Shown here: positions 42,396-45,100 of the stretch, one piece after another
Position numbering within the stretch: position 1 is the stretch's first letter
How the letters are laid out: every line of letters begins with the position of its first letter
NCBI RefSeq assembly: GCF_001894825.1
Contig: NZ_BCWY01000006.1
Coordinates: forward strand, 1 to 64,000
Length of the DNA: 64,000 nucleotides
From: Rhodococcus jostii NBRC 16295
GTDB taxonomy: Bacteria > Actinomycetota > Actinomycetes > Mycobacteriales > Mycobacteriaceae
Direction of reading: 5' to 3'
Notes under the pieces: generated by a model
The model's database searches: none
Told to the model about the DNA's origin: nothing
Seen by the model: the letters and a program-made list of their open reading frames with translations, nothing else
Translations under genes and position numbers: made by a program

Positions 42396-44335
42396 TGATC
42401 TTCCTCCCCGGCCGCTGCGGCCGTGCCCGAACGCTGCTCGCGCTCCATGGCCTCGTGAATGACGGCCGGCTCGGCAGCCGCCTCGTCGTCGTCGAACAGC
42501 GGACGGATGCCCCGCGCCGCCATGATCTCGTCGTTGCTCGTACCCGCGGCGACCATCGGCCACACCTGGGCGTCGGCGCCGACGATGAAGTCGATCACCA
42601 CCGGCTTGTCGTTGATGGCCTGAGCCTCACGGATCGCAGCCTCGACGTCCTCTTCGCGCTCGACGCGAATGCCGTGGCAGCCCAACGCCTCCGCGAGCTT
42701 GACGAAGTCGGGGATGCGGATCGCACCGTGCGTGCCGAGGTTGGTGTTGGAGTAGCGCTGGTCGTAGAACAGCGTCTGCCACTGACGCACCATGCCGAGG
42801 TTTCCGTTGTTGATGAGCGCAACCTTGATCGGGATACCCTCGAGCGCGCAGGTGGCGAGTTCCTGATTGGTCATCTGGAAGCAGCCGTCACCGTCGATGG
42901 CCCACACCTCGGTGTCGGGCATACCCATCTTGGCGCCCATCGCGGCGGGCACGGCGTAGCCCATCGTGCCGAGACCGCCCGAGTTCAGCCACGTGCGCGG
43001 CTTCTCGTAGTTGACGAACTGCGCGGCCCACATCTGGTGCTGCCCGACGCCGGCGCAGTAGATCGCGTCGGGACCGGCGAGCTTGCCGACCGCCTGGATC
43101 ACGAACTCCGGGGACAGCGCGCCGTCGGAGGGACGGTCGTAGCTGAGCGGGTACGTGCGACGGATTCCGTCGAGGTACGCCCACCACTCGGTGAGGTCCA
43201 GCGTGGTTCCGGTGGCCAGGTCGGCCTTGATCGCCTCGATCAGTTCGACGATGACCTCTTTGCAGTCGCCCACGATCGGGACGTCCGCGTACCGGTTCTT
43301 GCCGATCTCCGCCGGGTCGATGTCGGCGTGGATGACCTTGGCGTCGGGGGCGAACGAATCGAGCTGACCGGTGACGCGGTCGTCGAAGCGCGCGCCGAGG
43401 GTGATCAGCAGGTCGCTACGCTGCAGCGCCGCCACCGCCGCGACCGTGCCGTGCATGCCGGGCATGCCGCAGTTCAGCGTGTGACTGTCCGGGAATGCGC
43501 CGCGCGCCATGAGGGTGGTGACCACCGGAATGCCGGTGAGCTCGGCCAGTTCCAGCAGTTCCGGAGACGATTCCGACTTGATCACGCCGCCACCGACGTA
43601 GAGCACCGGGTGCTTCGCGTCGGCGATCAGACGAGCGGCCTCGCGGACCTGCTTGCCGTGCGGCTTGGTGACGGGACGGTATCCGGGCAGTCGCATCTCC
43701 GGCGGCCACGAGAACGTCGTCTGCGCCTGGAGAACGTCCTTCGGGATGTCGACGAGCACCGCGCCGGGTCGACCACTGGACGCGAGGTAGAAGGCTTCCG
43801 CGATGATCCGGGGAATGTCGACGCCGTCGGTGATGAGAAAGTTGTGCTTGGTGATCGGCATCGTGATGCCGGAGATGTCGGCTTCCTGGAACGCGTCGGT
43901 CCCGATGAGCGCCCGGCCGACCTGGCCGGTGATCGCCACGACCGGAACGGAGTCCATCTGGGCGTCGGCGAGCGGAGTCACGAGGTTGGTGGCACCCGGG
44001 CCCGACGTCGCCATGCAGACGCCGACCTTGCCGGTCGCCTGGGCGTAACCGGTGGCGGCGTGGCCTGCTCCCTGCTCGTGACGGACGAGCACGTGCCGGA
44101 CCTTCTTCGAGTCGAAGAGCGGGTCGTAGACAGGGAGAACGGCACCACCCGGAATGCCGAATACCGTGTCGACCTCGAGCTCCTCGAGGGCTCGGACCAC
44201 GGACTGGGCGCCACTGACCCGCTCGGGGGCGAGTTGGCGGCGGCTACCGGTCTGCGTCGCGGCTGCCGCGGTCGTCGGGCTTGCTGCCCCCGACTTGCGC
44301 GGCGTGGGTTGAGGCCGTGCGGTTGGTGCGCTCAC
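42392..44335 (-). CDS. ilvB: Acetolactate synthase large (catalytic) subunit
   Basis: This thiamine-diphosphate/FAD enzyme condenses pyruvate to acetolactate (or with 2-oxobutyrate). The 647-residue product has a variable Ala/Thr/Pro N-terminus (about 40 residues), [17 protein letters not shown] with the catalytic Glu region, [10 protein letters not shown] (FAD domain), and the TPP motif [29 protein letters not shown]. It starts at GTG 44335. It is preceded by a 148-base leader with a peptide and an attenuator, so expression responds to supply of charged branched-chain tRNAs. Confidence 0.97.
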
Positions 44336-44367: not shown

Positions 44368-44400
44368 AAAAAACCCCCGTCAGCGAATGCTGTACGAGGG
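44368..44400 (-). terminator. ilvB attenuator (intrinsic terminator in leader)
   Basis: On the minus-strand RNA, CCCTCGT (44394-44400) pairs with ACGGGGG (44374-44380), and CAGC pairs with GCTG inside it around an ATTC loop, with one bulged A. Six U residues follow (44368-44373). The structure lies 32 bp before the ilvB start and after the leader peptide, as expected for a transcription attenuator. Confidence 0.9.
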
Positions 44401-44436
44401 TGGCGCGTCGTTATCTGGCGAGTTGAAGGAATCGAC

Positions 44437-44484
44437 TCAGGCGACGACGCGCCGGCCGATTACGAGCAACTCATTCTGTTTCAC
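44437..44484 (-). CDS. ilvL: ilvB leader peptide (attenuation control)
   Basis: A 16-codon open frame (GTG 44484 to TGA 44437) encodes MKQNELLVIGRRVVA. Six of the 15 codons are for Leu, Val or Ile (LLVI then VV). The GTG begins 7 nt after a TACCGT -10 box, so the mRNA very probably starts at or one base before the start codon and the peptide is translated leaderlessly; no Shine-Dalgarno sequence is seen. The stop lies 36 nt before the attenuator stem. This fits ribosome-stalling control of ilvBNC by charged branched-chain tRNAs, as known for C. glutamicum and other bacteria. Confidence 0.82.
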   Translation of the reverse strand: MKQNELLVIGRRVVA

Positions 44485-44491
44485 GCGCTCG

Positions 44492-44521
44492 ACGGTAGGC
44501 GCGCTAATGGTGAACAGTCAA
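44492..44521 (-). promoter_or_regulatory. ilvBNC promoter
   Basis: TTGACT (44516-44521) and TACCGT (44492-44497) are separated by 18 bp on the minus strand, close to the housekeeping consensus (TTGACA, TAnnnT). The predicted start of transcription is at 44484-44485, on the GTG of the leader peptide. Confidence 0.75.
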
Positions 44522-44581
44522 CTTGGTGAGTCGGCCGTCCCAGAATATGAGATACATCGGCTGCGGTGCGAAGATGTAGAG

Positions 44582-45100
44582 GTGTCAACTTCGCAGCAGC
44601 CCGTGCCACCAGAATCATCATCCCACACGACGAACCCACCCAAGCAGGTCATCCGGATTTCTCCTTTGGCCTACCTGGGATGCGCCTTCCTCCTGTTCGC
44701 CGTGTCGTTCCCCATCTTCGGCTGGCCCGCCGCCTTCGGCTGGCTCGTGATCGCCCCGATCGTCGCGGTGGCCTGGGTCGCACGGGTGCGCACCACGGTC
44801 ACCTCCGACGGGCTCGAAGTGCGCCGGCTGTTCGGCAGCCGATCGCTGGACTGGTCCGAGATCACGGGATTCCGCTTCCCCAAGCGCGGCTGGGCCCGGG
44901 CAACGTTGGCGGACGGCGGCGAGGTCACCCTTCCCGTGGTCACGTTCGACCGGCTCCCCGATATCGCCGAGGCGAGCGGCGGCCGGATCACCGACCCCTA
45001 CGCAGCAGCCGCCGCAGCGGAGGAAGCGGGCCACCACGCCGCGACCGAAGCGAACGGCGAGCGCCCGGCGAAGAACCGGCCGGACACAGACGGGGAATAG
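44582..45100 (+). CDS. PH-like domain membrane protein (Cfp6 homologue)
   Basis: This 172-residue protein has two closely spaced membrane helices (about residues 27-66, LAYLGCAFLLFAVSFPIFGWP and FGWLVIAPIVAVAWVA). They are followed by a bacterial PH-like domain (TTVTSDGLEVRRLFGSRSLDWSEITGFRFPKRGWARATLADG), then an Ala/Glu-rich tail. Rv3004 (Cfp6) occupies the same site divergent from ilvB. Function is unknown. GTG 44582 is chosen because earlier in-frame starts lie in the ilvB leader. ilvD follows 52 bp later. Confidence 0.8.
   Translation: MSTSQQPVPPESSSHTTNPPKQVIRISPLAYLGCAFLLFAVSFPIFGWPAAFGWLVIAPIVAVAWVARVRTTVTSDGLEVRRLFGSRSLDWSEITGFRFPKRGWARATLADGGEVTLPVVTFDRLPDIAEASGGRITDPYAAAAAAEEAGHHAATEANGERPAKNRPDTDGE

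Follow-up and report, generated by a model that had tools for sequence, protein, structure and literature searches.

A probable leaderless attenuator of known kind upstream of ilvBNC in Rhodococcus jostii, with a nearly invariant GUA codon

All the attenuators of Corynebacterium glutamicum that Neshat et al. examined in 2014 are reportedly leaderless. At the ilvB leader of this species, transcription is described as starting one nucleotide from the leader start, GUA is named as a conserved control codon, and, in the account given there of Morbach 2000, expression fell by 80% after a change of the leader start codon, and the valine response was abolished by a three-valine change (PMC11857589). 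The Corynebacterium diphtheriae ilvB transcript is reported to start at the leader start and to be leaderless (PMC5784534), as is IlvL of Streptomyces lividans (PMC8079986). Attenuation of Mycobacterium tuberculosis ilvB1 was reported in 2026 (PMC13236596), and leaders with terminators had been predicted for Mycobacterium, Corynebacterium and Streptomyces in 2005; the paper with these predictions also gives a codon substitution in the Streptomyces coelicolor ilvB leader as having no effect, which counts against an attenuator reading (PMC1262725). A preliminary description of the DNA studied here had singled out the lack of a 5′ UTR as unusual. Leaderless ilvB leaders have been published in C. 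glutamicum (one nucleotide from +1), C. diphtheriae and S. lividans (PMC11857589, PMC5784534, PMC8079986), and the feature is therefore not unusual.

We analyzed a 64,000-nucleotide stretch of Rhodococcus jostii NBRC 16295 (the window; positions 1 to 64,000 of contig NZ_BCWY01000006.1), in which the operon lies on the minus strand, as do all features below unless stated otherwise. It comprises ilvB, encoding the acetolactate synthase large subunit (44335-42392, GTG start; Pfam TPP_enzyme N, M, and C); ilvN, encoding the small subunit (listed ORF 42563-41892, the true start probably being internal to it; Pfam ALS_ss_C and ACT_AHAS_ss); and ilvC, encoding ketol-acid reductoisomerase (41853-40840; Pfam KARI_N and KARI_C). 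Upstream of ilvBNC is a short, conserved ORF rich in pathway codons, MKQNELLVIGRRVVA (44484-44437), which has 15 codons, a GTG start and a TGA stop and contains the run TTG CTC GTA ATC (L6 L7 V8 I9; 44469-44458, with GTA at 44463-44461). Between this ORF and the first gene lies an intrinsic terminator, whose hairpin (44401-44373) has 12 bp and a single bulge and is followed by U6 (44373-44368). By eye, CUCGUA is present both in the sensing codons (44467-44462) and in the 5′ arm of the terminator (44401-44389). The preliminary description had proposed an ilvBNC attenuator with a GTG-opened 15-codon branched-chain amino acid leader peptide and a T6-tailed terminator before ilvB; these parts, the promoter geometry and conservation across loci bear it out. 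The Rhodococcus ilvB leader belongs to a known attenuator kind, and we conclude that it very probably acts on ilvBNC as a ribosome-mediated, leaderless transcription attenuator with the three-hairpin design of C. glutamicum. Its role is probably to switch on the genes for valine, leucine and isoleucine when those amino acids run short.

The promoter consists of a −35 element, TTGACT (44521-44516), and a −10 element, TACCGT (44497-44492), 18 nt apart; both motifs, with their spacing, are conserved in relatives. Seven nucleotides (CGAGCGC) separate the −10 element from the GTG at 44484, and the ilvB GTG at 44335 lies 149 nt from the predicted +1. These are the coordinates proposed earlier; the label "consensus-like" suits the −35 element, and the −10 element matches only the actinobacterial TAnnnT form (the actinobacterial boxes are given as TAnnnT and nTGACn in PMC8079986). 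A generic search for sigma-70 promoters and terminators between 43800 and 44900 missed both elements of the ilvB leader, because TACCGT fits only that actinobacterial form and the terminator stem is interrupted. Divergent from the operon, on the plus strand, runs a bacterial PH-domain gene (44387-45100; Pfam bPH_6), whose possible starts include ATG 44507 and GTG 44510, inside the ilvB promoter, and GTG 44582, outside it.

For comparison, IlvB was searched in 28 genomes of the genus (match in 27 at E up to 1e-60), 151 of the family (match in 147 at 1e-85) and 196 of the class (match in 194 at 1e-60). From among the matches listed, 161 loci (81 + 80 stretches) were compared, with the seven other IlvB-like loci of the window genome (L002-L008) left out. 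When promoter features aided the choice, a leader candidate was found in 149/161 loci and none in 12/161; a strict choice by peptide and U-tract only was passed by 114/161 loci, giving 105 unique leaders. The leaderless type is the usual arrangement in the examined loci of the window's bacterial family and no oddity. Loss of the reading frame in related species had been named beforehand as grounds for refutation; the leader is kept in the loci of the genus, and the pattern of −10 element, start and leader codons matched 33 named stretches, every one titled Rhodococcus or Prescottella, in a database that may lack near relatives of the window. No leader candidate was found at L034-L037, four loci of relatives at which the IlvB match reaches 76-81% identity, nor at L144, L145 and L152. 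The latter three come, like L149-L151, from a single genus of the family whose genomes are small. In that genus, the peptides of L149 and L151 are of an LIIRVLV type, with TANNNT at a distance of 7 nt and a sensing run that looks different, and L150 has a leader-like peptide, MMIRLSVVISQRRLP, about 620 nt upstream of its IlvB match. The window genome itself contains a second IlvB-like gene, L002 (contig C156; 84% identical over the N-terminal query), whose 3.5-kb locus has neither the promoter-start pattern nor CTCGTA; its one leader candidate is not of the ilvB-leader kind and was rejected.

In the 105 unique leaders, which had been picked by peptide and U-tract only, the start codon is GTG in 72 and ATG in 33, and TANNNT ends 3-12 nt before it in 84/105: at 6 nt in 8, 7 nt in 61, 8 nt in 11 and 9-10 nt in 4, that is, at 6-8 nt in 80/105. 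Where both TTGAC and TANNNT are present, the spacer between them is 18 nt in 71 leaders and 17 nt in 5. Control ATG/GTG codons of the same upstream regions, in a comparison whose leader choice had used promoter features, showed TANNNT at 6-8 nt in 9/2261 cases and TANNNT together with TTGAC in 0/2176. The promoter geometry at the ilvB leader exceeds chance expectation. Among the 21/105 leaders that lack TANNNT are L067, L068 and L074, where an upstream in-frame start would fit, the choice at L149, which is plainly a wrong ORF, and nine with an MRTRIL.. peptide, the S. lividans type, whose published counterpart is leaderless. Judged from this geometry and its broad conservation, which back the earlier suggestion of a leaderless GTG start, transcription probably begins on the G of GTG 44484. 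A search of the literature returned no Rhodococcus transcription-start map among the matches listed. The same attenuator might instead have a short 5′ UTR, with a start a few nucleotides upstream of the GTG. GTGATG tandems in some relatives, the four leaders with TANNNT 9-10 nt from the chosen start and the published C. glutamicum start one nucleotide off the start codon (PMC11857589) would suit such an RNA; we consider it improbable, given that CGAGCGC contains no Shine-Dalgarno-like sequence, that 80/105 leaders have the 6-8-nt spacing, and that published accounts describe leaderless leaders in C. diphtheriae and S. lividans (PMC5784534, PMC8079986).

Farther upstream, 66 nt from the leader start, is an imperfect, operator-like palindrome, TCATATTCTGGGA (44550-44538). 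The pattern YCAY-N-(T/C)GRGA, drawn up after inspection of the very sequences scored, is present in 55/105 unique leaders and has any match in 3% of shuffled upstream regions; of its 57 matches, 52 fall 64-68 nt ahead of the first leader codon. S. coelicolor NdgR is described as recognizing a 15-bp motif, with ilvB among its targets, and the window palindrome loosely resembles that motif (PMC4340878). It is perhaps the operator of a second, DNA-level regulator, separate from the attenuator itself.

The valine codons of the leader peptides fall into two classes. In the longest Ile/Leu/Val run of the 105 unique leaders, valine is encoded by GTA 131 times, by GTC twice and by GTT twice, whereas outside that run the same peptides use GTC 118 times, GTT 12 times, GTG once and GTA never (0/131). 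GTA makes up 4/262 valine codons (1.5%) in five window genes and, in ilvB ORFs taken from 47 leader loci, 52/2527 (2.1%). Several positions of the run show the preference, as in GTACTCGTAATC and CTCGTAGTAGTAATC, and it therefore reflects more than one fixed hexamer. It extends to 20 leaders outside the window's family, whose runs contain GTA 25 times, GTC once and GTT twice and whose other valine codons are GTC (10). The draft genome that contains the window (9.73 Mb) gave 50 tRNA hits, with valine tRNA genes of anticodon TAC (1), CAC (1) and GAC (2). The simplest reading of these codon counts is that GUA is the main sensor codon, although an RNA-level constraint at GUA may be an alternative cause of the choice. 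The two consecutive valine codons near the end of the peptide had also been proposed as sensors. We reject this because they lie within H2, a conserved helix described below whose 5′ arm is formed by codons 11-14, and because valines outside the sensing run use GTC; they look structural, shaping H2. Codons that sense can in this way be told apart from codons that seemingly only shape the RNA. The literature search gave, among the matches listed, no published account of this GTA/GTC partition, GUA being named as noted above in PMC11857589, and we regard the nearly invariant GUA sensing codon as a newer detail of a known switch type.

The partition also bears on whether the peptide matters at all. 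The ORF might be a by-product, and the element a ligand-sensing riboswitch or otherwise independent of leader translation: ppGpp riboswitches are stated to control ilvB in some other bacteria (PMC10272879), and the S. coelicolor codon substitution reportedly without effect (PMC1262725) points the same way. Against this stand the conservation of the branched-chain amino acid codons and a valine codon choice in the run opposite to that of the other valines of the peptide. Rfam covariance models, run over the window at the gathering score, returned two tRNAs only, and at E up to 1 the segment 44250-44650 gave one sub-threshold snoRNA match, outside the leader; a ppGpp riboswitch or other Rfam family is discarded, with no covariance-model match at the leader. 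In addition, ppGpp is reported to have produced no structural change in the Corynebacterium ulcerans relative (PMC10272879), and an M. tuberculosis reporter in which LVVI was changed to AAAA is described as giving low expression without a dose response (PMC13236596). We regard a translation-independent element as very improbable and retain the ribosome-mediated attenuator.

Folding of the leader identified the terminator and two further helices. The terminator hairpin has a folding energy of −18.6 kcal/mol, and no shuffle of the 47-nt stretch containing it folds as well (z = −4.37; 0/200); for the whole 148-nt leader, 4/200 shuffles are equally good (z = −2.18). The first helix, H1 (44472-44420), joins the coding half of the leader to the post-stop spacer and is the putative anti-antiterminator. 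By eye, GAGUUG (44472-44467) pairs with CAACUC (44425-44420), and the folded window H1 comprises 14 coding:post-stop pairs at −22.9 kcal/mol (z = −2.06 against spacer shuffles). A four-pair H1 core considered as a candidate had a probability of 0.00-0.03 on folding and was replaced by this longer H1. H1 is a conserved pairing, with at least 8 coding:post-stop pairs in 73/96 leaders and fewer in 23/96; the median z against spacer shuffles is −1.96 across the 96, being below −1 in 78/96 and below −2 in 46/96. H1-type pairing is also present in the folds of L044 and L108.

The second helix, H2, pairs GGCGCGUCGU (44453-44444; codons 11-14, RRVV) with ACGACGCGCC (44411-44402), whose end directly adjoins the terminator. 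The pairing is conserved: 97/100 leaders have an H2 of 7 bp or more, compared with 8.5% of 2000 shuffles, and in 94/100 this helix lies in addition at most 1 nt from the terminator, compared with 4.2% of shuffles, these counts not being independent events because the loci are related. Its arms change together between leaders, as in GGCGCATC:GATGCGCC, AGCGCGTCGG:CCGACGCGCT and GCGCGTTGGTG:CACCAACGCGC. H2 and the terminator have no base in common in 85/100 leaders and 1-2 common bases in 15/100, and H1 and H2 draw on overlapping coding bases. When a ribosome with an assumed 14-nt footprint was placed on the window leader, the probability of H2 was 0.97 with codon 7 in the A site, 0.76 with codon 8 and 0.38 with codon 9, and fell to 0.00 with the ribosome farther on, at codon 10, at the VV codons or at the stop. 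Hence, by computation, the alternative pairings H1 and H2 depend on ribosome position. Equilibrium folding fails as proof of a switch, because the terminator probability never drops below 0.97 in the full-length states tested, though H2 adjoins it: the ribosome gates H2 in these folds, and gating of the terminator by H2 does not appear. With no ribosome, H2 has a probability of 0.97 at equilibrium in the window leader, and in 79/96 leaders the H2 state is the more stable.

H2 might then be a pause or timing hairpin, with some other pairing competing with the terminator, for instance that of the terminator's 3′ arm with the loop of the leader hairpin, as proposed for Corynebacterium ilvB-II. 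The compatibility of H2 and terminator at equilibrium would fit, as would an antiterminator drawn with the 3′ shoulder of the terminator in PMC10272879; by eye, CUCGU of the sensing codons could also pair with ACGGG of the terminator, a pairing with the wrong logic in that a stalled ribosome would block it. In the folds, H2 is available when the ribosome is stalled at codons 7-8 and blocked when it has reached the stop, and in 94/100 leaders H2 lies no more than 1 nt away from the terminator. Both points argue for H2 itself as the putative antiterminator, and we judge the pause or timing role unlikely.

In the attenuator that we favor, the RNA would begin on the G of the leader GTG, and a ribosome could therefore load once the 5′ end emerges. 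With charged tRNAs available, the ribosome would reach the stop codon and cover the 5′ arm of H2, so that the terminator forms and transcription ends. At a hungry sensing codon, mainly GUA, which would be decoded by tRNA-Val(UAC) from its single gene in the window genome, the ribosome would stall at codons 7-8, covering H1 and freeing most of codons 11-14; H2 could then form with its end directly at the terminator base, and polymerase would read through. H2 would block termination probably by steric or kinetic hindrance, adjoining the terminator base; we propose hindrance because no base belongs to both H2 and the terminator in the window sequence. Without a ribosome, H1 would be the first to form and, provided that it lasts long enough, would favor termination. 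The low expression without leader translation in C. glutamicum would require such an early and lasting H1, since H2 is the favored state at equilibrium. These last steps rest on geometry and on the mutational work in C. glutamicum (reported in PMC11857589), because folding lacks gating of the terminator by H2. The model predicts that changing GTA to GTC would blunt the valine response with the peptide unchanged. More tentatively, it is possible, rather than probable, that across actinomycetes the ilvB attenuator responds unequally to the branched-chain amino acids, being a dedicated meter of the rare isoacceptor tRNA-Val(UAC) that reads nearly invariant GUA codons and acts through a coaxial H2 helix set against the terminator base, without base sharing.

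Among described systems, the window leader is like ilvL of the C. glutamicum ilvBNC operon in having a 15-residue branched-chain amino acid leader at or one nucleotide from +1, the same operon, a downstream terminator and the H1/H2/terminator logic; it differs in its GTG start (ATG in C. glutamicum), in its run LLVI (LVVV in C. glutamicum), and in that its antiterminator and terminator abut with no base in common, whereas those of C. glutamicum are described as sharing a GCC trinucleotide (PMC11857589). The S. lividans ilvL is similar in its leaderless peptide MRTRILVLGKRVG, its hairpins, its U-rich stretch and its ilvB operon (PMC8079986). In the compared loci that carry this same peptide, the sensing valine is encoded by GTA; they differ from the window leader in a −10 element not of the TANNNT form and in a shorter peptide. 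The Corynebacterium ilvB-II element, known from 103 Corynebacterium sequences, likewise places its upstream ORF within a leader hairpin, and an intrinsic terminator comes next, before ilvB; its antiterminator is drawn with the 3′ shoulder of the terminator (PMC10272879). M. tuberculosis ilvB1NC, for which a 166-nt leader and an abundant short transcript of about 120 nt are reported, resembles the window locus in its branched-chain amino acid upstream ORF (LVVI), its intrinsic terminator, its operon and its logic (PMC13236596).
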